From SAR202 cluster bacterium (GTDB taxonomy: Bacteria; Chloroflexota; Dehalococcoidia; Lucifugimonadales; Lucifugimonadaceae), in NCBI GenBank assembly GCA_009392285.1, contig VFGU01000008.1, positions 1 through 60,992 of the forward strand: a DNA stretch of 60,992 nucleotides. The letters are read 5' to 3'. How positions within the stretch are numbered: the stretch's first letter is position 1; the number at the start of each line of letters is the position of its first letter. The notes below the pieces were generated by a model. The model saw only the letters and a list, made by a program, of their open reading frames with translations, searched no databases and was not told the DNA's origin. Below, piece after piece: positions 4,309-35,668 of this stretch. Made by a program: the position numbers and the translations under genes.

Positions 4309-4342
4309 TTGTGGCACAATTCTTATTGTTTTGTAACAATAA
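4309..4342. promoter_or_regulatory. Two palindromes before the ABC permease gene
   Basis: TTGTG-G-CACAA (4309-4319) and TTATTGTT-TTGT-AACAATAA (4323-4342) are perfect inverted repeats in the 106-base divergent region between the enolase-superfamily gene and the permease. The string TTTGTAACAA from the second one recurs around 5179, before the binding-protein gene. That could mark a shared operator for the import locus. The permease ATG at 4352 has no recognisable ribosome-binding site. Confidence 0.35.
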
Positions 4343-4351
4343 TTTACAATC

Positions 4352-5140
4352 ATGATTAAAAGGGTGCTAAACGTTAAAGACAAAAAAACCGTAATTAATT
4401 TTTTTATATTATTCATAATTATTGCAATATTGATTTATTTTGCAGACCTAGAAAAACTGCAAGAAACAATGTTCAAGCCTGAAATTATTGTTGATCAGTT
4501 TCCTAAAATAATTACCCAAGCAGCAAAAAATACCCTTATTTTCACTATTGCAGGATTTGCTGGAGGTTCAGTTCTTGGCTTGATATTGGCACTTATGAAA
4601 TTGTCCAAATTTACTTTTTCAAGAATAATATCCTCGATTTATATAGATTGCATAAGGGGTCTTCCTGCTATTTTAATTTTAATATTTATTGCCTATGGTC
4701 TGCCTATTGCATTTGGGGTAAGAATACCTGGGGCTTACTCAAAAGGAATCTTAGCTTTATCAGTTGTATCTTCAGCATATATTGCGGAAGTAATCAGGTC
4801 AGGAATAGAAGCAATACCTCAAGGGCAAGGAGAAGCTGCAGAAGCCTTGGGGATGGGCAAGATAACAATTTATTCAAATGTGATACTGCCTCAAGCCTTT
4901 AGGATAATGATTCCTCCATTTACAAATGAATTAGTTCTATTACTTAAAGATACTGCCTTAATTTCTGTTATAGGAGTGACAAGTGCCACAAAAGAACTCA
5001 CAAGGTTTGGAAGAGACGGCGTGATGAGCGATGCGAATGCTACCCCTCTAGTTGTTACAGGATTTATATATTTAATCCTCACGATACCACTCACGAGACT
5101 TGCCAGTTATCTAGAAAAAAAATTATCCCACAAAGATTAA
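4352..5140 (+). CDS. Polar amino-acid-type ABC transporter permease (HisM/GlnP-like)
   Basis: A 262-residue inner-membrane permease with an N-terminal helix at about residues 15-32 and the conserved PAAT permease core. AAKNTLIFTIAGFAGG and CIRGLPAILILIFIAYGLP are typical. The cytoplasmic EAA loop is EAAEALGMGKITIYSNVILP; it should dock on an ABC ATPase. Members normally pair with a HisP/GlnQ-type ATPase, but no such gene is in the window. The next gene encodes a lipoprotein whose first domain is the matching binding-protein family. Either the cognate ATPase is elsewhere or the permease borrows another one. There is no visible ribosome-binding site. Confidence 0.9.
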   Translation: MIKRVLNVKDKKTVINFFILFIIIAILIYFADLEKLQETMFKPEIIVDQFPKIITQAAKNTLIFTIAGFAGGSVLGLILALMKLSKFTFSRIISSIYIDCIRGLPAILILIFIAYGLPIAFGVRIPGAYSKGILALSVVSSAYIAEVIRSGIEAIPQGQGEAAEALGMGKITIYSNVILPQAFRIMIPPFTNELVLLLKDTALISVIGVTSATKELTRFGRDGVMSDANATPLVVTGFIYLILTIPLTRLASYLEKKLSHKD

Positions 5141-5249
5141 TAAGAAAAATATTCTCATTCAAACCAAACTTCACACCTTTGTAACAACTTTTCAAAAAAA
5201 CTTGTTATGATTTAAATCTAAAAATTAAATACCAGTGAAGGATAACCTG

Positions 5250-7292
5250 ATGAAAAACCTTAAACTAAAATTTATTGGTCCTGTTGTTCTTATTTCTCTC
5301 TTTATTGGCCTAGTTGCTTGTGAAGCTGAGACCATGGCAGAGATGGAGCCACCAAAAGATGCTCCACCAAAAGGTGCCATGAAAGACGGACCACCACCTA
5401 AAAAGGGACCACCACCTGAAAAAGGACCACCACCTAAAAAGGGTGATGTTCCAGCGCCTGGAAGATCTCCAGCGCTTAACCAAGCTCTTGGAAATCTAAC
5501 ATCTGAAGGAGAACTAACAGTATGTACTGATGCGCCATACGAACCTTTTGAATACGAAGATGAAGATGGAAACTGGACAGGGTTTGATATGGATATAATG
5601 CGAGATATATCTGCAAGAATGGGGCTTGAACTAGCGGTTAAAGTTGTTCCATTTGATGGAATATGGCTTCTCCCAGCTTCAGGAGAATGTGACATTGTAG
5701 CGTCTGCGATGACAATAACCGAAGAAAGAGCAAAGTCTACATTATTCACAAATCCATATTTTGATGCTGACCAATCTTTATTGGTAAGAACTTCAGATGC
5801 GGACAAGTTTGGAACTCTTAGTTCTCTATCTGATGGTAGTATTGCTGTTCAAACTGGAACTACTGGAGAAATGTATGCTCAAGAAAATGCTCCTAGTGGC
5901 GCAACACTAGTATCATTTGATGAGCCTGCTGCGATGTTCTTGGCTCTGCAATCTGGAGAAGTAGATGCAATTTTGCAAGACTTACCAGTTAATGGAGATA
6001 GGCAAAGAAACAATCCTTCATTTGCTATGACGGAAGTTTTTCCTACTGGAGAACAATATGGATTTGCAGTAAGTCCAAAGAATAAACCTCTTGCGGATGT
6101 TGTTAACGACATGATGGAAGAAATGATGATGGATGGTGTTTACGAGATGATCTTTAATGCTTATTTTGGACCTGTAGGAGAAGTTGAACCTATAAAAGTT
6201 GGAATGATACTTGTTGGACCAAGAAATGATAAAGGTTGGTCTCAGGCTCACTTTGAAGGTGGAGAATATGTTGTTGAAAAGATGGGTGGAAATATTGAGG
6301 AAGATTACATTGTTGTTGACTTTGTAAATCCGGCTGATTCACCAGACTTAACTGTTCCTGATGTAGTTTCGGACATGATAGATCAGGGAGCAAAAATTAT
6401 CTTTGCTACCTCTGACGACATGGGTGATGGAATTATGGAAGCTGCAGCAATGTTCCCGGACACACCTATGATTTTTGCTTCAGGTGATACTGCTTGGGAA
6501 GAAGGTAAAAGGTACAAGCCTGAATTAACAAATTTGGCTAACATAATGGGTAAAATGGAATACGGACAAATGGTTGCAGGTTGTGCTGCAGCAATAAAGT
6601 CTAAAGATGGAAAAATTGGTTTCCTAGGCCCATTAATCAATGCGGAAACTAGGAGACTTGCAAATGCAACTTATGTTGGTGCACTTGCTTGTGCTGGAGA
6701 TAAATCTATTGACTTTAAAGTTACTTGGATCGGTTTCTGGTTCCATATTCCTGGATTCACTCTTGACCCAACTCAAGTAACTAATGACTTCTTTGACGAA
6801 GGTAGAGATGTAGTCATTTCGCACATTGATACCACTGAGGCATTAGTTGTTGCAGGTCAAAGAGCTGCGGGAGGAGAAACAGTATGGGCAGTTCCATATG
6901 ATTATGAAGGTGCTTGTGAACAAGCTCCAGATATATGTTTAGGTGTAAACTACTATAACTGGGGTCCATCTTACTTGCAGGCTGCCATGCACGCATCTTT
7001 TGGAACTTTTGAAAATAATTTCTACTGGCCTGGTCCAAATTGGAGTGATTGGAATGATCACGATTCATCTATGATAGGATGGATTCCTGGTGCTGGATTA
7101 ACTGCTGCTGAAAACGATGAACTCAACGAATATATCAATGAGCTCACACAATCAAAAGCAATTTTTGAAGGTCCATTAAATTATCAAGATGGGACACCAT
7201 TCCTTGCAGATGGAGAAGTAGCTACAGATCTGCAAATCTGGTATGCTCCTCAACTTCTTGAGGGAATGATCGGTGATTCATCAGCTGAATAA
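5250..7292 (+). CDS. Fused double solute-binding lipoprotein: SBP_bac_3 domain + BMP (nucleoside-binding) domain
   Basis: A 680-residue secreted lipoprotein. A signal peptide ends in lipobox LVAC with the acylated Cys at residue 24. A Pro/Lys-rich spacer follows (about 34-70), containing three G-P-P-P-(K/E)-K repeats. Residues about 88-307 match polar amino-acid binding proteins of SBP_bac_3 type (LTVCTDAPYEPFEYEDEDG, CDIVASAMTITEER). Residues about 314-675 match the BMP/PF02608 family of purine-nucleoside-binding lipoproteins (KVGMILVGPRNDKGWSQAHF). The start is ATG 5250 because AAGGAT lies before it; an upstream GTG at 5235 lacks this. It sits between an amino-acid-type permease and a BMP-type importer, so one lipoprotein may feed both. 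No stop codon or frameshift separates the two domains. Confidence 0.92.
   Translation: MKNLKLKFIGPVVLISLFIGLVACEAETMAEMEPPKDAPPKGAMKDGPPPKKGPPPEKGPPPKKGDVPAPGRSPALNQALGNLTSEGELTVCTDAPYEPFEYEDEDGNWTGFDMDIMRDISARMGLELAVKVVPFDGIWLLPASGECDIVASAMTITEERAKSTLFTNPYFDADQSLLVRTSDADKFGTLSSLSDGSIAVQTGTTGEMYAQENAPSGATLVSFDEPAAMFLALQSGEVDAILQDLPVNGDRQRNNPSFAMTEVFPTGEQYGFAVSPKNKPLADVVNDMMEEMMMDGVYEMIFNAYFGPVGEVEPIKVGMILVGPRNDKGWSQAHFEGGEYVVEKMGGNIEEDYIVVDFVNPADSPDLTVPDVVSDMIDQGAKIIFATSDDMGDGIMEAAAMFPDTPMIFASGDTAWEEGKRYKPELTNLANIMGKMEYGQMVAGCAAAIKSKDGKIGFLGPLINAETRRLANATYVGALACAGDKSIDFKVTWIGFWFHIPGFTLDPTQVTNDFFDEGRDVVISHIDTTEALVVAGQRAAGGETVWAVPYDYEGACEQAPDICLGVNYYNWGPSYLQAAMHASFGTFENNFYWPGPNWSDWNDHDSSMIGWIPGAGLTAAENDELNEYINELTQSKAIFEGPLNYQDGTPFLADGEVATDLQIWYAPQLLEGMIGDSSAE
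5388..5441 (+). repeat. Three 18-base tandem repeats encoding a Gly-Pro-Pro-Pro-Lys/Glu-Lys spacer
   Basis: Units at 5388-5405, 5406-5423 and 5424-5441 encode G-P-P-P-K-K, G-P-P-P-E-K and G-P-P-P-K-K. They differ at only a few bases. They lie just after the lipoprotein cysteine, where a stiff, charged spacer would hold the binding domains away from the membrane. Such repeats can change copy number by slippage. Looser PPK units continue upstream from about 5348. Confidence 0.85.
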
Positions 7293-7308
7293 TCGATGAA
7301 TTAATTGT

Positions 7309-7346
7309 AAAAATAGGTGGCTATTTTTAGCCACCTATTTTTATTT
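7309..7346 (+). terminator. Rho-independent terminator between the binding-protein and ATPase genes
   Basis: A perfect hairpin has its two arms at 7309-7323 and 7328-7342, with core TAGGTGGCTA pairing with TAGCCACCTA and a TTTT loop. The descending arm runs into TATTTTTATTT. It lies 17 bases after the binding-protein stop codon. The downstream ATPase gene starts only about 30 bases later with a GTG and no clear ribosome-binding site. This layout fits partial termination, giving more binding protein than transporter. Confidence 0.85.
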
Positions 7347-7373
7347 GGATAAACTTTATAAATTATATTTTCT

Positions 7374-8861
7374 GTGAAAATTAAGATAAAAAATATTAGT
7401 AAAAAATTTGATTCTGTAATTGCTAATGATCAAATTAATATTGAAATTACCTCAAAAAAAATTCATGCATTACTTGGAGAAAATGGAGCAGGCAAATCAA
7501 CACTGGTAAAGATTATTTCTGGACATTATAGCCCTGACTCAGGAGAAATTTTTATAAATGATAATAAGTTAGATACTGGATCAACATCATCAAGTATAAA
7601 AAATGGTATCGGAATACTTAGTCAAGACCCACTAGATTTTCAAAATTTATCAATTAAAGAAAGTTTTATAGTTGGATCAAAAAAATTTGGGGAGAATTTT
7701 AGAGATAAAAATATTCAAAATGAATTATTTAAAGCATTTAAAAAATATGAAATTGAATTAAGTTTAGATCAAAAAATAAGATCATTATCTATTGGGGAAA
7801 GACAACAAATAGAATTAATAAGATTGCTCTTTGAAGATTCTAAAATAATAATATTAGACGAACCAACCAATGGATTCTCACTAAAACAAAGAGACTTGGT
7901 TTTTAAAATGTTGAAAACGTTAAGTTCTGAGGGCTATATAATTATCTTGGTCTCACACAAACTCGATGAAGTATTAGAATTATGCCAAGAGGCAACGATC
8001 TTAAAGGGCGGCAAAAAAATCAAGACCATCCCTATTCCATATGACAAGAATAAAATTATTGATCTAATGTTCCAAGGAGAACAAAGAAAAGTTACTCAAA
8101 AAAAAGTAACTAAAAAAAATACTTCCGGGATGATAAATCTCAATCTAAAAAAATGGAGGAATGGATATACTGATAATAAAGGATTCTCAATTAAACCATT
8201 CAATGAAGGGTCAATAATTGGAGTTGTGGGTCTTCAAGGTTCAGGCGCAGATATATTTATTAGGGATATTTTCGATAGGAAAATAGATGTGCAAAGATTT
8301 ATCAAAACAACATCACCAATTAGAAATAACATGCTCAAAGAAAATCTAGCCCCTATCCCTAAAGATGATAATTACTACACCCCATCAGACAGGTTGGAGC
8401 GCGGTTTATTTGGAGAACTTACTATTAATGAGCATGTCGCACTTGCTTCCAAAGGAAACAAACTAATTGGCTGGAAATCTATAAACGAAAGTTCAAAAAG
8501 TTTAATAAAAGAATTTGAAATAAAAGGTATGCCGAATTTATTTGCAAACCAATTATCAGGTGGAAATCAACAAAAATTACAACTTGCATTAATTCCAAAA
8601 ACTCCAGGGCTAGTACTGTTAGAACAACCTACAAGAGGTCTGGATGTAAAGAGCACTAGTTCTGTTTGGGAGAAAATTATAGAAAGATCTAAATCCGATA
8701 TTTCGGTCATTTTTTCTACTACAGATATTGATGAAGTATGGGAATATTCAGATTACATTATATGTTTTTCGGGAGAAAACATAACAAAAATTTCACCAAA
8801 AGGATCAATGAAAAAAGATGATATTAAATTTTTTATTTCTGGATTGGAATCAAGAAAATGA
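7374..8861 (+). CDS. BMP-type (nucleoside/sugar family) ABC transporter ATPase with two nucleotide-binding domains
   Basis: A 495-residue cytoplasmic ATPase with two domains. Domain 1 has Walker A GENGAGKST (about residue 35), signature LSIGERQQ and Walker B IIILDEPTNG. Domain 2 has a degenerate Walker A (GLQGSGAD, no Lys), signature LSGGNQQK and Walker B with Gln in place of Glu (LLEQPTRGLD), so only one ATP site is probably fully active. This asymmetry is known in the YufO/NupO and RbsA families. It starts with GTG after a terminator. Its stop overlaps the next gene by ATGA, so ATPase and permeases form one transcript. It powers the two BMP-type permeases; serving the permease at 4352 as well would be unprecedented but cannot be excluded. 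Confidence 0.93.
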   Translation: MKIKIKNISKKFDSVIANDQINIEITSKKIHALLGENGAGKSTLVKIISGHYSPDSGEIFINDNKLDTGSTSSSIKNGIGILSQDPLDFQNLSIKESFIVGSKKFGENFRDKNIQNELFKAFKKYEIELSLDQKIRSLSIGERQQIELIRLLFEDSKIIILDEPTNGFSLKQRDLVFKMLKTLSSEGYIIILVSHKLDEVLELCQEATILKGGKKIKTIPIPYDKNKIIDLMFQGEQRKVTQKKVTKKNTSGMINLNLKKWRNGYTDNKGFSIKPFNEGSIIGVVGLQGSGADIFIRDIFDRKIDVQRFIKTTSPIRNNMLKENLAPIPKDDNYYTPSDRLERGLFGELTINEHVALASKGNKLIGWKSINESSKSLIKEFEIKGMPNLFANQLSGGNQQKLQLALIPKTPGLVLLEQPTRGLDVKSTSSVWEKIIERSKSDISVIFSTTDIDEVWEYSDYIICFSGENITKISPKGSMKKDDIKFFISGLESRK

Positions 8862-9916
8862 TTAACTTTAACATTAATAATTTTATTACCTTAGCCACAC
8901 AAATAGTTTTGGCAGCAATAGGCGCTTCATTAATAATTATTTTACTTGGCGCATCTCCGGTCGAGGTTATTACATCAATTTTCGATGGAGCATTTGGAAG
9001 GCCAGAAAAAATAGTAAAAACTATGCTAATTTTTCTCCCCATATCACTTGCTGCATTGGCCCTAATTATTACATTCTCCGGTGGGCTATGGAATATAGGA
9101 ATTGAAGGTCAAATTGTATTGGGAGCAATAGGGGCATCATGGGTATCTAAATCTTTTCTAGGAGAATCCAATATTTCACCTTACTTACAATTAATAGTCG
9201 GAATCTCAATGGGTTCTGCATGGGGCTTATTATGCGGATTATTAAAGGTAAAATTTCAAGTCCATGAGATATTTGGCGGACTAGGATTATACTTTGTTGG
9301 TAGCGGAGCAATAATATATCTAATTTTAGGACCCTGGAGTAAACAAGGCATAGCTTCAACTAGTGGAACAGATATATTTCCAAAAGAGTCTTGGTTTCCT
9401 ACTGTTTCCTCGCTTAATATTCCTGCCCTTCCAATTTTTATTATTTGCCTAATAATCATTGCCATAATTCTTTTTCTTTCTTTTTCAAAACTCGGTTTAA
9501 AACTTAAGGCTACCGGAGTAAATCCAGACTCAACAAATAAGTTTCAATTCAACAGCAATAGTTATATTTATTTAGCTTTTTTGATTGGAGGCGGGATTGC
9601 TGGATTAGCTGGGGTTTTTCAAGCTGGGGTGTTTTATCATAAATTGGTTCCATCTATTTCAGGAGGATATGGTTTTCTAGCAATATTAGTTGTATTAGCC
9701 TCCGGAAAAAGAGTTGTGCCTACTTTGCTGCTCACATTATTTTTCTCTGCCATGATTGCCGGTGGCTCCCAATTGCAACTGAGGCTAAATCTACATTCAA
9801 GTTTAATTTCGATTATTTTATCGTCAATGGTATTTTTTTGGCTTGTAGTTAACTCTGTTCCTGTTAAAAAAAATATTTCTAGAATAATAAATAGAGGTCA
9901 TAATGCTTCCTTTTGA
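8858..9916 (+). CDS. BMP-type (purine nucleoside) ABC transporter permease 1
   Basis: A 352-residue inner-membrane permease of the BPD_transp_2 family (YufP/NupP-like). It has about ten hydrophobic segments and the characteristic SGGLWNIGIEGQIVLGAIGA motif after the first helices. GLKLKATGVNPDSTNKF is the coupling-loop region that contacts the ATPase. Near the end VVLASGKRVVPTLLLTLFF is conserved in this family. It overlaps the ATPase stop by four bases and the second permease by fourteen. Together these make the usual heterodimeric pore. The substrate is inferred as purine nucleoside or base from the BMP domain and the nearby salvage genes. Confidence 0.92.
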   Translation: MINFNINNFITLATQIVLAAIGASLIIILLGASPVEVITSIFDGAFGRPEKIVKTMLIFLPISLAALALIITFSGGLWNIGIEGQIVLGAIGASWVSKSFLGESNISPYLQLIVGISMGSAWGLLCGLLKVKFQVHEIFGGLGLYFVGSGAIIYLILGPWSKQGIASTSGTDIFPKESWFPTVSSLNIPALPIFIICLIIIAIILFLSFSKLGLKLKATGVNPDSTNKFQFNSNSYIYLAFLIGGGIAGLAGVFQAGVFYHKLVPSISGGYGFLAILVVLASGKRVVPTLLLTLFFSAMIAGGSQLQLRLNLHSSLISIILSSMVFFWLVVNSVPVKKNISRIINRGHNASF

Positions 9917-10856
9917 ATCTTCAGTAGTTACAGTTATTTCGCTCAGCGCTCCTATTATTTTGGTTGTTATTGGAGAAACTATTACCGAAAAATCTGGGGT
10001 TATCAATTTATCTATCGAGGGCACACTTTTAATCACAGCCCTTACTGCATTTGCAGTATCAGTAACAACTGGAAGTCCCTTTTTAGGTTTCCTTTGCGCA
10101 GGATTGGTTGGAAGTATAGCTGCACTTGTTATTATTATATGCGACACCAAACTAGGGATGGACCAAATAGCAATAGGATTCATTCTGACCATTTTTTTGG
10201 GGAAGTTAAGTAGTTTTTTGGGGAAAGAATATGTAAGAATACCTGGCCCATATTTTCAAGAGTTATCTATCCCTATTCTTAAAGATATTCCATATTTAGG
10301 CCCAAGTTTCTTTGATCAAAATATCATTGTAATATTCTCATTCCTAATGATTCCGGCAACATGGTATTTTATAGAAAAAACGAGACTAGGATTAATAGTT
10401 AAAGCGGTTGGAGAAAACCCAGTATCTGCACAAAATAGAGGCATAAATCCAGAAAAGGTCAGAATTATTGCAACTGTAGTTGGAGGTATACTTATTGGCT
10501 TTGGAGGGGCAGCATTTTCATTGCATGCCAAATTTGGTTGGTCAGAAAATCATACAGGAAATTATGGATGGATATGCTTAGCAATTGTGATATTTGGGGG
10601 CTGGAATCCAATAAGAGCAGCAATAGGAGCTTATAGTTTTGGAATTTTTCAAATTATTGCTTTAAAAATGCAATCTGTCGCATTAGGACTAACTCAGGTA
10701 TTACCATTAATACCATTCCCTTTAATGATACTAACTTTAATTTTTATCCAAAGATTTAATAGGTCAGATAGAACTACAAATTTACCAAAAATTTTAAATG
10801 CTTTTTTTGGGGGCCAATCTCCAGAAAATATAGGTAAACCTTTAGAAAAAAATTAG
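9903..10856 (+). CDS. BMP-type (purine nucleoside) ABC transporter permease 2
   Basis: A 317-residue partner permease of the BPD_transp_2 family (YufQ/NupQ-like). It contains PIILVVIGETITEKSGVINL and SIEGTLLITA near the N-terminus, both diagnostic, and the coupling region TRLGLIVKAVGENPVSA. The ATG lies inside the end of permease 1 behind a GAGGT ribosome-binding site, so the two are translated in coupled fashion. It is the last gene of the import operon. Its stop codon is immediately followed by the stop of guaC on the other strand, leaving no room for a terminator between them. Confidence 0.92.
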   Translation: MLPFESSVVTVISLSAPIILVVIGETITEKSGVINLSIEGTLLITALTAFAVSVTTGSPFLGFLCAGLVGSIAALVIIICDTKLGMDQIAIGFILTIFLGKLSSFLGKEYVRIPGPYFQELSIPILKDIPYLGPSFFDQNIIVIFSFLMIPATWYFIEKTRLGLIVKAVGENPVSAQNRGINPEKVRIIATVVGGILIGFGGAAFSLHAKFGWSENHTGNYGWICLAIVIFGGWNPIRAAIGAYSFGIFQIIALKMQSVALGLTQVLPLIPFPLMILTLIFIQRFNRSDRTTNLPKILNAFFGGQSPENIGKPLEKN

Positions 10857-11876
10857 TTATTTATATTTCAGAACAAAAGAAATGCATTTAGGCATATTTT
10901 TCAAATCTTTAGCCCCAATATAGGTAGCGGCTGATCTTATTCCGCCTAATATTTGTTGGACCGTCTTATCTACAGGGCCTCTATATTCAAGAGATATAGT
11001 CTCACCTTCACTTGCCCTATATTCTTTAATGTCACCATAATATCTTTCCATTGCAGTATCAGAACTCATCCCATAAAACTCTTTATATTTTTTTCCATCC
11101 TTTTCGATTACTTTTCCGCCAGATTCCTCATGACCTGCCAACATACCTCCAAGCATGACAAAGTCTGCACCTGCCCCAAAAGCCTTAGCTACATCACCTG
11201 GCGTAGAACATCCTCCATCTGAAATAACGTGCCCTCTTAATCCATGAGCAGCGTCAGCACATTCTATAATGGCAGAAAGTTGCGGATACCCAACACCTGT
11301 TACGGTTCTAGTAGTACATACAGATCCAGGCCCAATTCCAATCTTAACTATATCTGCGCCTGCTAAAATTAAAGCTTCTGTCATTTCTCCGGTAACTACA
11401 TTTCCAGCAATTAATGGATTATCGAACTTATCTCTTATTTTTTTGACGAGATCTAAGAACACTTCTGTATAACCATTAGCTACATCTAAGCATATAAATT
11501 TAGGCGTGCTAAGATTCTCAGATTTTAGATACTTAAAAAAGTCATCAGCATTCTCTGCCTCTTCCACACCAAATGTTACGGCGCAATATTCTCCGTCTAT
11601 TTGATTGGACTTAATGGCGCCTGCCCATTCCTCCATTGAATAAAACTTGTGAATAGCAGTAAGCATTTTGTTCTTTTTGAAAGCTTCAGCAATCTCAAAG
11701 GTACCTGTTGTATCCATATTGGCTGATATTATAGGTATACCCTTCCAAGTTGTGCTTGAATGTCTAAATTTAAATTCTCTTTCTAGGTCAACTAACCTCC
11801 TTGAAGATAAAGTGCTTCTTTTAGGTCTTATTAATACGTCATCAAAATCTAACTTAAAATCGTGTTCTACTCTCAT
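10857..11876 (-). CDS. guaC: GMP reductase
   Basis: A 339-residue TIM-barrel enzyme that converts GMP to IMP with NADPH, releasing ammonia. The loop [18 protein letters not shown] carries the catalytic Cys shared with IMP dehydrogenase. The choice of GuaC over GuaB rests on the absence of a CBS-domain insert, the length (about 345 is usual for GuaC) and the segment [16 protein letters not shown]. The ribosome-binding site GAGGAGAGGG is formed by the end of the hpt gene immediately upstream. With hpt and the nucleoside-type importer next door it forms a purine salvage group: imported guanine compounds can be moved into the IMP/adenylate branch. Confidence 0.93.
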
Positions 11877-12380
11877 TTAATCCCTCTCCTCATCAGAAAT
11901 ATAAGATAGTTGTCTTAAAGTGCCATTTTCATCATCCATTCCATATCCATAAACCCAAGTATCTTCTACGTCAAATCCCTTCCATCCGATATCTACTAAT
12001 TTATGTTTTTTAATTTTTTTATCTAACATAACTACAATTTGAAGGTCAGATGGAGAATACTCTTGATGCAAATAATCTATTAAATTACTTAAAGTTTCCC
12101 CTGTATCATATATATCTTCAATTATTAGAATTGAACTATTATTCTTAGGCTTTGAACCTGAAAAATTCCAATTTTCATCTTCGTCGAATACATATGAAAT
12201 GAATATTTGGTCAGCTCCAGGATTTGTGATTTCTCTAAGTAGGTCAACTGCGAAAGGAACCCCTCCATTCATTGGAACTACTATACACAACTCATCAACT
12301 AACCTGCCTCTATAATAATTAGATATTTCTTTAGCTAATTCAGAAACTTTTGATTTGATTTCTTCAGATGAAATTTTCAT
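11877..12380 (-). CDS. hpt: Hypoxanthine(-guanine) phosphoribosyltransferase
   Basis: A 167-residue type I phosphoribosyltransferase that attaches PRPP to hypoxanthine or guanine. The N-terminal loop VVPMNGGVPFAVDLLREI and the PRPP-binding motif SILIIEDIYDTGETL are clear. WVYGYGMDDENG near the end resembles the hood region that selects 6-oxopurines. I start at ATG 12380 (MKISSEE); an upstream in-frame TTG at 12401 lies inside the promoter area. Neither start has a ribosome-binding site, so initiation may be leaderless or short-leader. It abuts guaC with no gap and is co-transcribed with it. Confidence 0.88.
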   Translation of the reverse strand: MKISSEEIKSKVSELAKEISNYYRGRLVDELCIVVPMNGGVPFAVDLLREITNPGADQIFISYVFDEDENWNFSGSKPKNNSSILIIEDIYDTGETLSNLIDYLHQEYSPSDLQIVVMLDKKIKKHKLVDIGWKGFDVEDTWVYGYGMDDENGTLRQLSYISDEERD

Positions 12381-12405
12381 ATGTATTAGTATTTTTAACA
12401 ATCGA

Positions 12406-16872: not shown

Positions 16873-17820
16873 CTATTTTTCTAGATCACTCCAAATTTCT
16901 TTACAGTAATCTAAACTCTGCTTGTCAGAATAGAATTGATCTCCATCGAATACGCCTTCTAGTGCCATTAATCCACTATAATTTCCGTCGTACATTGCTT
17001 CAATTGCAAACCTGTAATCAATCTCTCCTCCAAGTATATTTTCCCTAACGAAGACTGATCTTCTGTTTTCAGGGTGATTTACTCTAGTCATATTTTTACA
17101 GTGCCAATAGTTTGAAATTGGAGCCAACTCCTTAATCGCGTCTTCTGTTCTCTCCTCTGGGATGTCATAATTCCAAATTATATTTCCTAGGTCTGGATTA
17201 ATCCCAAAATTATCTCTTTCCACTTTACTGTGTAGTAATTTAGCAGACCAACTGTTATCTATCGGAGAATTCTGATGTACTTCGCATGAGATGTTTAATC
17301 CATAATCTTTTGCCTCGTCGCATAACTCTTGGTATTTTTCAGCGAGCATATCGTACTCAGGTAAAGAGGTTTCTCTACTTGAATTTTGAGAATAAGGAAA
17401 GCCATGATGAGCAAATTCCAAACCAGAAACTAAACTTGATCCAGAATCAATATATGGGGATTTTTCAGGTTCACATGTTGCTCCATTAATTACTTCAGAT
17501 TTTAAAATTTTTCCAAATTTTAATGCCCTCTTGGCCCTTATGATATTTTCTTCTCCGCTTTTAGGATCAATCATTAATCCGCCGGATCTAATTGCTAATA
17601 CAGGTGTTCCAAGATCTGAGAGTCTTTTTTCGAATTCTTTTAGTCCATTTTCTCCTCCCTCAACCCTATCTAAACATTCCATTCCAAGTTCAATTCCATC
17701 AAAACCCATCTTTTCTACTCTTTTTAAAAACTTATCAGTCAGTCTTTTTGGGTCCATATCAAACGCATTTCCTAAGTAAGGATAATCAGAAAATCTTCTG
17801 AAGGCATAACAAAATCTCAT
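16873..17820 (-). CDS. Sugar phosphate isomerase/epimerase-like TIM-barrel protein, copy 1
   Basis: A 315-residue AP-endonuclease-2-fold TIM barrel (xylose-isomerase-like family). It starts MRFCYAFRRFSDYPY and carries likely metal ligands in IELGMECLDR, ISCEVHQNSPID, INPDLGNIIW and YWHCKNM. The start is ATG 17820, behind GAGAGGA; an in-frame ATG 15 bases earlier would swallow this ribosome-binding site. A second copy lies at 34700-35668. The 3' 651 bases of the two are identical at DNA level while the 5' parts differ mostly at synonymous sites. It heads the operon leading to inositol-phosphate synthase. Inosose or keto-sugar isomerisation is possible but not shown. Confidence 0.9.
   Translation of the reverse strand: MRFCYAFRRFSDYPYLGNAFDMDPKRLTDKFLKRVEKMGFDGIELGMECLDRVEGGENGLKEFEKRLSDLGTPVLAIRSGGLMIDPKSGEENIIRAKRALKFGKILKSEVINGATCEPEKSPYIDSGSSLVSGLEFAHHGFPYSQNSSRETSLPEYDMLAEKYQELCDEAKDYGLNISCEVHQNSPIDNSWSAKLLHSKVERDNFGINPDLGNIIWNYDIPEERTEDAIKELAPISNYWHCKNMTRVNHPENRRSVFVRENILGGEIDYRFAIEAMYDGNYSGLMALEGVFDGDQFYSDKQSLDYCKEIWSDLEK
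16876..17526 (-). repeat. 651-base exact repeat, copy 1
   Basis: This stretch is identical base for base to 34712-35362 (offset 17836). It covers the 3' two thirds of a TIM-barrel gene in both places and ends close to both stop codons: T-tract length differs just outside. At the other end identity stops abruptly at 17527 versus 35363. Both copies are in the same orientation, so they are direct repeats 17.8 kb apart. No inverted terminal repeats or transposase are associated. Confidence 0.97.
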
Positions 17821-17901
17821 TTTATTTCCTCTCAAACTCTATCTATTGCATAGAATAATAAAACATTTAGACTTTAATTTTAAATTAATTCTGATCTAAG
17901 C

Positions 17902-20115: not shown

Positions 20116-21270
20116 TTAGTCCAAAAAATTCTTTATAATAGACAATGCCTCTTTGAGGTTTTCTCTAGAATTTGCAAAAGAGATCCTTAAATACCCTTCT
20201 CCAAACTTTCCGAAAGAAGTTCCCGGCAAAACTGCTACACCTTCATTTAGTAATGCATCTGAAAGTTGCTGGCTAGTAAAGCCCGTTTCTTTGATATTAG
20301 GAAAGGCATAAAAAGCTCCTTTTGGTTTAATACAACTAACGCCTTTAATGTCATTGAAACCGTCAACAACTATTTTTGACCTTGCCTTAAACTCCTCCAG
20401 CATCATCTTGACGCTATCTTGAGGGCCTTGAATTGCAGCTACTGCAGCCTTTTGACTAAAAGCAGAGGTACAAGAAACACTATTTGTAACAAGTCTAGAA
20501 ATTGGCTCAACTAATTCGTCAGGAAAGATTCCATAGCCTAACCTCCACCCTGTCATCGCATAACTTTTAGAAAAACCGTCTAGGATTATTGTTTGTTTTT
20601 CCATGTCATCAAAATCGTAAACAGAATAATGGCTACCTTCAAAATAAAGATCTTTATAAACTTCATCAGTCAAAATAACTATATTATTCTTATAGGCTAA
20701 ATCTGCCACTCGTTTAATATCTTCTGAATCCATTACACTTCCGCAAGGGTTATTCGGGGAGTTTATTATTATTAATTTTGTCTTATCGGTTATTGATTTC
20801 TCTATTAGATCCACATCAGCGTTAAACCCTTTTTCTTCTTTTAATTCCATTGGGATGGGATTCCCGCCAACATATCTAATCATAGATTCATAAATTGGAA
20901 ATCCAGGGTTTGGATAAATTACTTCATCTCCAGGCTCAATTAGAGCCATTATAGAAAAAAACATTATAGGTTTCGCGCCAGGTGTAAATACTACATTTTC
21001 AGGCGATATATCCTTTCCGTGAACATTAGATTGGTGTTCGGCGATAACTTCTCGAACATCCATAAGGCCCGGAGACGGAACATAATGCGTAAAATTATCA
21101 TCTAAAGCTTTTTTGGCAGCTTCTTTTATATGGTCTGGTGTCTCAAAGTCAGGCTCACCAATTTCTAAGTGAATAATTTTCTTGCCTTGAGCTTCCAATT
21201 TTTTAGCCTTAGCAAGTACTTCAAAAGCTGTCTCTGTTCCTAATCTATTTAAACTGCTAGCAAGTTTCAT
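20116..21270 (-). CDS. Pyridoxal-phosphate aminotransferase, class I (aspartate aminotransferase-like)
   Basis: A 384-residue fold-type I aminotransferase. IINSPNNPCGSVMD binds PLP, and the Schiff-base Lys is in DGFSKSYAMTGWRLGYG. The C-terminal Arg in GYLRISFANSREN should bind the substrate carboxylate. Aspartate or aromatic amino acids with 2-oxoglutarate are the usual substrates of this subgroup; the precise one is not readable. AAGGGA lies seven bases before the ATG. It converges on the regulator gene with two bases between the stop codons and is divergent from the K+ channel gene. Confidence 0.93.
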   Translation of the reverse strand: MKLASSLNRLGTETAFEVLAKAKKLEAQGKKIIHLEIGEPDFETPDHIKEAAKKALDDNFTHYVPSPGLMDVREVIAEHQSNVHGKDISPENVVFTPGAKPIMFFSIMALIEPGDEVIYPNPGFPIYESMIRYVGGNPIPMELKEEKGFNADVDLIEKSITDKTKLIIINSPNNPCGSVMDSEDIKRVADLAYKNNIVILTDEVYKDLYFEGSHYSVYDFDDMEKQTIILDGFSKSYAMTGWRLGYGIFPDELVEPISRLVTNSVSCTSAFSQKAAVAAIQGPQDSVKMMLEEFKARSKIVVDGFNDIKGVSCIKPKGAFYAFPNIKETGFTSQQLSDALLNEGVAVLPGTSFGKFGEGYLRISFANSRENLKEALSIIKNFLD

Positions 21271-33977: not shown

Positions 33978-34703
33978 ATGAAACTCAAAGGAAAAAAAGC
34001 ACTAGTAACTGCAGCAGGTCAAGGAATTGGCAGGTCTACTGCTGAACTTTTTGCTGAAAATGGCGCAGAAGTATTTGCATGTGATATTAATCAAGGTACT
34101 TTAGCAACTCTAAATGGAATGAAAACTATTCAAGCAGACGTAACAAAGTATAGTGACATTGAAAATATTTTCAGAGAAACAGGCGGTGTTGATGTTCTAT
34201 TTAATGGCGTAGGATTTGTTCATGGTGGAACGATACTTGAATGCGATGAAGATCAGTGGGATGAAGCATTTAATATAAACGTAAAATCAATGTATCAGAT
34301 TATAAAACTATATCTACCACATATGATTGAACAAGGTTCTGGCTCAATAATTAATATGTCTTCGGTTGCTTCAAGCTTGGCTGGAGTTGTAAATAGATTT
34401 TCTTACTCTGCAAGTAAAGCTGCAATAATTGGTATCACCAAGTCAGTTGCAAAAGACTTCGTAGGGAGTGGTATAAGATGTAATGCTATTGCCCCTGCTA
34501 CTGTTGAATCTCCTTCTCTGCAAGATAGAATAAATGCTGAAGATGATCCTGTTCAAGCAAAAAAAGATTTTATTGCAAGACAACCTATGGGAAGACTTGG
34601 TCAACCAGAAGAAATAGCTAATTTAGCTTTATATTTAGCTTCTGATGATTCCAAATATACTACTGGTGTCGCACATATAATCGATGGCGGAATGATAATT
34701 TAA
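33978..34703 (+). CDS. SDR oxidoreductase (BDH2/2-keto-3-deoxy-L-fuconate dehydrogenase-like)
   Basis: A 241-residue short-chain dehydrogenase. Cofactor motif TAAGQGIGRSTA, NAD-type Asp in VFACDIN, catalytic Ser in NMSSVASS and Tyr-Lys in YSASKAA. The segment CNAIAPATVESPSLQDRI and the tail GVAHIIDGGMII closely resemble human BDH2 (DHRS6) and bacterial 2-keto-3-deoxy-L-fuconate dehydrogenases. Possible substrates are 3-hydroxybutyrate, 4-oxoproline or deoxy-keto sugar acids; I cannot choose. It starts four bases after mdh. Its stop TAA overlaps the stop of the converging TIM-barrel gene. Confidence 0.9.
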   Translation: MKLKGKKALVTAAGQGIGRSTAELFAENGAEVFACDINQGTLATLNGMKTIQADVTKYSDIENIFRETGGVDVLFNGVGFVHGGTILECDEDQWDEAFNINVKSMYQIIKLYLPHMIEQGSGSIINMSSVASSLAGVVNRFSYSASKAAIIGITKSVAKDFVGSGIRCNAIAPATVESPSLQDRINAEDDPVQAKKDFIARQPMGRLGQPEEIANLALYLASDDSKYTTGVAHIIDGGMII

Positions 34704-35668
34704 CTGCTATTTTTTTCTAGATCACTCCAAATTTCTTTACAGTAATCTAAACTCTGCTTGTCAGAATAGAATTGATCTCCATCGAATACGCCTTCTAGTG
34801 CCATTAATCCACTATAATTTCCGTCGTACATTGCTTCAATTGCAAACCTGTAATCAATCTCTCCTCCAAGTATATTTTCCCTAACGAAGACTGATCTTCT
34901 GTTTTCAGGGTGATTTACTCTAGTCATATTTTTACAGTGCCAATAGTTTGAAATTGGAGCCAACTCCTTAATCGCGTCTTCTGTTCTCTCCTCTGGGATG
35001 TCATAATTCCAAATTATATTTCCTAGGTCTGGATTAATCCCAAAATTATCTCTTTCCACTTTACTGTGTAGTAATTTAGCAGACCAACTGTTATCTATCG
35101 GAGAATTCTGATGTACTTCGCATGAGATGTTTAATCCATAATCTTTTGCCTCGTCGCATAACTCTTGGTATTTTTCAGCGAGCATATCGTACTCAGGTAA
35201 AGAGGTTTCTCTACTTGAATTTTGAGAATAAGGAAAGCCATGATGAGCAAATTCCAAACCAGAAACTAAACTTGATCCAGAATCAATATATGGGGATTTT
35301 TCAGGTTCACATGTTGCTCCATTAATTACTTCAGATTTTAAAATTTTTCCAAATTTTAATGCTCTTCTTGCTCTTATGATATTTTCTTTTCCTGTTCTTG
35401 GGTCAATCATTGATCCACCCCACCTACCACCAGACCTAATAGCTAATACAGGAGTTCCAAGATCGGAAAGTCTTTTTTCAAATTCTTTTAGGCCATTTTC
35501 TCCGCCCTCAACTCTGTCTAGGCATTCCATTCCAAGTTCAATTCCATCAAATCCCATTTTTTCTACCCTTTTTAAAAACTTATCCGTAAGTCTTTTAGGG
35601 TCAAGGTCAGTAGCAATTCCTAAATATGGATAATCGGAAAATCTTCTAAATGCGTAACAAAATCTCAT
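34700..35668 (-). CDS. Sugar phosphate isomerase/epimerase-like TIM-barrel protein, copy 2
   Basis: A 322-residue paralogue of the gene at 16873-17820. From the codon near 35362 to the C-terminus the proteins and DNA are identical apart from the last residues (this copy reads through to N-S-S). The N-terminal part keeps almost the same protein but with many synonymous differences; it also has an insertion giving GGRWGGSMIDP, where copy 1 has GGLMIDP. There is no ribosome-binding site, unlike copy 1. It is the last gene of the respiratory array, eleven bases after the HdrB-like gene, and its stop overlaps that of the SDR gene. Confidence 0.9.
   Translation of the reverse strand: MRFCYAFRRFSDYPYLGIATDLDPKRLTDKFLKRVEKMGFDGIELGMECLDRVEGGENGLKEFEKRLSDLGTPVLAIRSGGRWGGSMIDPRTGKENIIRARRALKFGKILKSEVINGATCEPEKSPYIDSGSSLVSGLEFAHHGFPYSQNSSRETSLPEYDMLAEKYQELCDEAKDYGLNISCEVHQNSPIDNSWSAKLLHSKVERDNFGINPDLGNIIWNYDIPEERTEDAIKELAPISNYWHCKNMTRVNHPENRRSVFVRENILGGEIDYRFAIEAMYDGNYSGLMALEGVFDGDQFYSDKQSLDYCKEIWSDLEKNSS
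34712..35362 (-). repeat. 651-base exact repeat, copy 2
   Basis: This tract is identical to 16876-17526. It lies in a different genomic setting (end of the respiratory array) but in the same orientation. The sharp edge at 35363, beyond which synonymous differences accumulate, lies inside the gene. Confidence 0.97.

Follow-up and report, generated by a model that had tools for sequence, protein, structure and literature searches.

The window, by which we mean the whole 60,992-nucleotide stretch of SAR202 cluster bacterium DNA analyzed here, carries on its forward strand a 680-aa open reading frame (5250-7292) encoding a lipoprotein receptor with two substrate-binding heads. Directly upstream lies AAperm (4352-5140, +), a single PAAT-type amino-acid permease of 262 aa with an intact EAA coupling motif (BPD_transp_1, 6e-24; HEQRo_perm_3TM, 74.5 bits versus a cut-off of 42.2). 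Downstream on the same strand, profile searches identify a 495-aa BMP-type ATPase with two ABC domains (7374-8861) and two BMP-type permeases of the BPD_transp_2 family (8858-9916 and 9903-10856), confirming the gene order of the original prediction, in which an SBP_bac_3-type permease precedes the receptor and the BMP ATPase and both permeases follow it. The BMP receptor, double-ABC ATPase and two BPD_transp_2 permeases constitute a complete BMP importer. The amino-acid half is not a complete PAAT importer, as no GlnQ-type ATPase gene stands beside AAperm, and the locus is not of the GlnPQ type, in which binding domains are fused to a transmembrane domain, as receptor and permease are separate genes. 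Two genes follow on the reverse strand: a GMP reductase of purine salvage (10857-11876), identified by profile search and by relatives as a conserved neighbor, and a hypoxanthine phosphoribosyltransferase-like gene (11877-12401). Between the receptor and BMP ATPase genes lies a conserved, covarying terminator-like hairpin of 11 pairs with a T-tract (7312-7346, +), which pairs in five of five distinct sequences, four of its pairs showing compensatory changes, and which an automatic terminator scan did not list; such a hairpin would favor more receptor than translocon transcript. The sequence TTTGTAACAA occurs at three sites in the window (4330-4339, 5178-5187 and 20483-20492; 0.41 expected), two of which precede AAperm and the receptor gene, respectively. 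It is retained in the close relative G016 and was not seen in G017, G009 or G010; since G016 alone among the relatives checked has kept it, an operator common to AAperm and the receptor was set aside. Elsewhere in the window, two near-identical TIM-barrel-like open reading frames are present (16873-17835 and 34700-35668).

The receptor and its two heads

By inspection of the sequence, the receptor begins as a bacterial lipoprotein, with a signal peptide, a lipobox (L-V-A-C at residues 21-24, read by eye, with Cys24 as the lipobox Cys) and a Pro/Lys/Gly-rich tether up to about residue 72; this whole segment (residues 1-72; 5250-5465, +) has model pLDDT < 50. The N-terminal head (residues 86-308; 5505-6173, +) belongs to substrate-binding protein family 3 (SBP3; SBP_bac_3, PF00497), by both its profile match (residues 89-307; E 7.7e-35; 120 bits versus a cut-off of 26.4) and its conserved amino-acid contact residues. 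A short junction (residues 308-312; 6171-6185, +; pLDDT < 50) leads into the C-terminal head (residues 312-680; 6183-7289, +), a Bmp or PnrA-like domain (PF02608) by both profile and purine pocket; the Pfam match at residues 316-554 (E 8.4e-12; 45.1 bits versus a cut-off of 24.1) covers the profile in part, and the remainder of the domain to about residue 677 is supported by relatives and by the structure model. The claim that one lipoprotein carries both domains in a single frame thus holds, with no internal stop in the translation. An assembly error or frameshift joining the heads is ruled out, as the frame is intact in four separate assemblies, among them that of uncultured SAR202 cluster bacterium AG-893-A15. 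An AlphaFold2 model (34-sequence alignment; mean pLDDT 77; pTM 0.59), in which the relative orientation of the heads is not reliable, predicts two confident domains, a disordered tether at residues 1-72 and a five-residue low-confidence junction at 308-312, and the predicted folds match solved amino-acid and purine binders.

Both ligand pockets look intact. In the SBP3 family, the Arg of TITxER and the Asp of QDLPVN hold the ligand carboxylate and amino group, as in the GlnH and LAO binding proteins, and both residues are invariant in the alignment of the N-terminal head. The solved structures nearest to this head are the GlnPQ substrate-binding domains and arginine- and glutamine-binding proteins, and from these features we infer that it binds an alpha-amino acid. 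The C-terminal head is nearest to AtzT, which binds guanine with a KD of 110 nM (PMC6834077), and to PDB 3s99, a Brucella basic membrane lipoprotein with adenine modeled in the structure; its predicted fold matches 3s99 and 6pi5. AtzT residues Tyr45, Ser97, Glu165 and Trp194 align with Trp, Ser, Glu and Trp in the BMP head, and Asn218 and Asn220 with His and Asp, as in 3s99, such that six pocket positions read from the alignment agree with 3s99. Given these residues and the neighboring salvage genes, the ligand is most likely a purine base. The purine nucleoside suggested in the original prediction appears less apt, as the pocket resembles those of the base binders 3s99 and AtzT and not that of a nucleoside receptor. 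Between the genome of the window (G000) and G016, dN/dS is 0.031 for AAperm, 0.065 for the SBP3 head, 0.064 for the BMP head and 0.02-0.08 for the BMP translocon genes. Both heads and AAperm are therefore under purifying selection, and a decaying or neutral half of the receptor is ruled out by the low values for every part.

With two heads fixed at 1:1 stoichiometry across a very short junction, it is conceivable that the receptor acts as a sensor or regulator, in which amino-acid binding by the SBP3 head gates purine uptake, or the reverse, and the fusion couples two nitrogen nutrients. However, the receptor has no signaling domain, the same SBP3 head also occurs on an SBP5 receptor, and the tandem domains of GlnPQ bind independently and without cooperativity (PMC8025302), so that this explanation is considered very improbable.

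Distribution in SAR202 and origin of the amino-acid half

A survey of 76 genomes of the family found the SBP3-BMP fusion with the same neighbors in four species of one SAR202 genus (G000, G016, G014 and G017). The two-family receptor is thus real and conserved in the genus, together with its flanking permeases, and the possibility that it would be missing from all close relatives did not hold, as three further species carry it. In trees, the SBP3 heads of the genus form a single clade (96/93), as do its SBP3-fused BMPs (100/99). The pairing of heads is not fixed within the genus. The receptor of G009 is SBP3-SBP3-BMP (915 aa) with AAperm upstream; that of G010 is BMP-BMP (857 aa), without an SBP3 head and with AAperm still upstream; and in G011 a BMP-BMP receptor is broken by the contig end, the same SBP3 domain is separately fused to an SBP_bac_5 (oligopeptide-type) protein of 913 aa, and AAperm was not found. 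In G000, G009, G014 and G016 the SBP5 orthologue stands alone, as a protein of about 626 aa. In G011 (SP257; L101:7695-11128), a second SBP5 gene with a different spacer comes after the SBP3-SBP5 gene; past the junction, the two copies agree at 127 of 128 nt up to the end of the contig, which may reflect a recent duplication or an assembly fork. Three assemblies (G012, G013 and G015) lack the region, a flanking epimerase probe finding only paralogues at 37-47% in them, and were left out of presence and absence. The outgroup genera g4, g5 and g10 have a single-domain BMP, ATPase and permeases with an adjoining HGPRT-like gene, and lack AAperm; within the family, AAperm was found only in the fusion-bearing genus.

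Variation in head composition by species (SBP3-BMP, SBP3-SBP3-BMP, BMP-BMP and SBP3-SBP5), like the small genomes of the genus (assemblies of 0.7-1.5 Mb), is compatible with a neutral or economizing fusion, in which the heads have a signal peptide, anchor and promoter in common and function just as they would separately. This reading overlaps with the one preferred below, and as a full account it is unlikely, for within the order the SBP3 subfamily is seen only in this genus and only as an added head inside longer receptors, in several combinations, which suggests some gain.

The closest SBP3 sequences outside SAR202 come from Acidimicrobiia and other Actinomycetota-labeled MAGs (best 55-62% identity). 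In Acidimicrobiia the SBP3 gene is free-standing and is followed by a permease (50-54% identical to AAperm) and then a GlnQ-type ATPase. The SBP3-AAperm pair may have been gained by horizontal transfer, which would explain this pattern most simply. Four loci labeled Bifidobacterium breve (L112, L115, L118 and L145) group with the Acidimicrobiia-type SBP3 loci, and their labels look wrong.

When seven assemblies of the genus, all incomplete (55.6% for G000 and 89% for the best), were probed with AapP or the Acidimicrobiia ATPase, no dedicated GlnQ-type ATPase was found; one encoded elsewhere in the genome was rejected on this basis, although it may lie in assembly gaps. In six of them (G000, G009, G010, G011, G016 and G017) the single good match was the Aap-operon ATPase, AapP, at 52-55% to the Acidimicrobiia probe, with next matches at about 40% or less; in the seventh, G014 (63% complete), no AapP match was found either. 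The EAA motif offers a weak hint in the same direction. Among the sequences listed, Acidimicrobiia-type permeases have mostly EAARS or EAGRS, with one EAAHS, and the EAAEA, EASEA and EAAKA of SAR202 AAperm are nearer to the EAADA and EAAQA of AapM and AapQ. AAperm thus probably runs on AapP; an ATPase serving several importers is known in the case of MsmK (PMC4519317).

Relation to known systems and to other Chloroflexota receptors

In open-licence PMC text, no described heterotypic fusion of substrate-binding proteins was found, and tandem binding domains are described there for GlnPQ/OpuA-type systems only. GlnPQ of Lactococcus lactis (PMC8025302; PDB 6h30) resembles the SAR202 receptor in its membrane-tethered tandem domains, short linker and SBP3 fold. 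However, both of its domains are SBP3, are fused to the permease GlnP and serve one translocator, whereas the SAR202 heads come from two different families and form a lipoprotein distinct from any permease, its gene being flanked by permease genes that likewise belong to two families. Tandem substrate-binding domains are already known, and the SAR202 receptor is a heterotypic form of them that is separate from the permeases. The Acidimicrobiia operon (e.g., L106) shares its SBP3 (up to 62%) and permease with the SAR202 locus and differs in that its binding protein is free-standing and an ATPase gene is present. The AtzT, Brucella 3s99 and PnrA/Bmp importers share the BMP fold, the purine-base pocket and the ATPase with two BPD_transp_2 permeases, but their receptors are single-domain.

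Multi-headed receptors recur in Chloroflexota. They include PBP4-BMP (L173:1864-4023), PhnD-like-BMP (L166:1682-4087) and SBP3-SBP5 (L180) fusions, and BMP-BMP fusions of one or of two subtypes (two-subtype, L175 and L176). Like the SAR202 receptor, those at L173, L166, L175, L176 and L180 carry two binding domains on one lipobox chain, with BMP C-terminal where present; they differ in their partners, and no permease of another family was seen beside L173 or L174. In a sample of 400 Chloroflexota genomes, in which the genome of the window was the one member of its genus, that genome alone among the matches listed covered both halves of the query. Candidate fusions at L165, L177 and L178 (GC-rich, the long N-terminal frame matching no family), L181 (frame running into N) and L182 (a single SBP domain only) were rejected. 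A separate 3,323-aa protein (L167:6606-16577) combines SBP_bac_5 and Bmp with PA14, beta-helix, cadherin-like and PKD domains. IMG/VR viral contigs (L147-L157; e.g., L151:4932-6077) encode a BMP lipoprotein, 62-65% identical and with its own lipobox, between tRNA nucleotidyltransferase, exonuclease and weak minor-head family matches; no transporter genes lie close by. The four of these sequences that were included in the tree group within the BMP clade of the SAR202 genus, and the protein is possibly a phage-carried purine receptor.

The PBP4-BMP and PhnD-BMP receptors adjoin only BMP-type ATPase and permease genes, as judged from the length, order and N-terminal sequence of the neighbors, an arrangement that would suit an extra head feeding the BMP translocon. 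By extension, the SBP3 head may also feed that translocon, which would then be multi-specific, as with the two domains of GlnPQ, and AAperm would be an unrelated neighbor; the persistence of AAperm beside the BMP-BMP receptor of G010, without SBP3, is compatible with this. However, the SBP3 and BMP folds differ, as do the permease families (BPD_transp_1 versus BPD_transp_2), the closest relatives of the SBP3 head and of AAperm share the same Acidimicrobiia operon, and both are limited to this genus within the family. This alternative is consequently regarded as decidedly unlikely.

A model for the two-headed receptor

Taken together, these data favor, with moderate confidence, a receptor in which one lipid anchor holds two functional heads, each with its own ligand and translocator, and an AAperm driven by AapP. 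The N-terminal SBP3 head would bind an alpha-amino acid and hand it to a homodimer of AAperm, whose dedicated ATPase gene appears to be gone and which probably draws on AapP of the cell's Aap-type importer. The C-terminal BMP head would bind a purine base and hand it to the downstream BMP translocon, and HGPRT and GMP reductase may then act on the imported base. Together, SBP3 and AAperm recall the three-gene importer of Acidimicrobiia, the binding protein having seemingly become, in SAR202, an extra head on the receptors of other importers. In this model the ligands, the homodimer, the sharing of the ATPase, the origin by transfer and independent delivery are inferred rather than observed. 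Two arrangements count against it: the receptor next to AAperm in G010 has no SBP3 head, and the SBP3 domain of G011 is carried by an oligopeptide-type receptor in a genome where AAperm was not found. Of the composite importer originally proposed, the tethered two-head receptor beside both permease families stands and is conserved; however, the amino-acid importer lacks an ATPase gene at this locus. With its own PAAT ATPase gene missing there and only AapP found in six assemblies of the genus, such an importer would need a borrowed ATPase.

The usual view of substrate-binding proteins assigns one receptor to each importer. A conserved receptor of two classes beside both permeases makes docking, stoichiometry and ATPase sharing testable, and does so in abundant, small-genome ocean bacteria that feed on dilute organic matter. 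For annotation pipelines the receptor is a caution: in these genomes, a gene labeled "BMP" or "amino-acid binding protein" may encode both. More tentatively, the receptor may exemplify a recurrent Chloroflexota design, in which binding domains from unrelated importers have been brought together on a single tether serving two translocators, and a permease without an ATPase borrows that of another importer.
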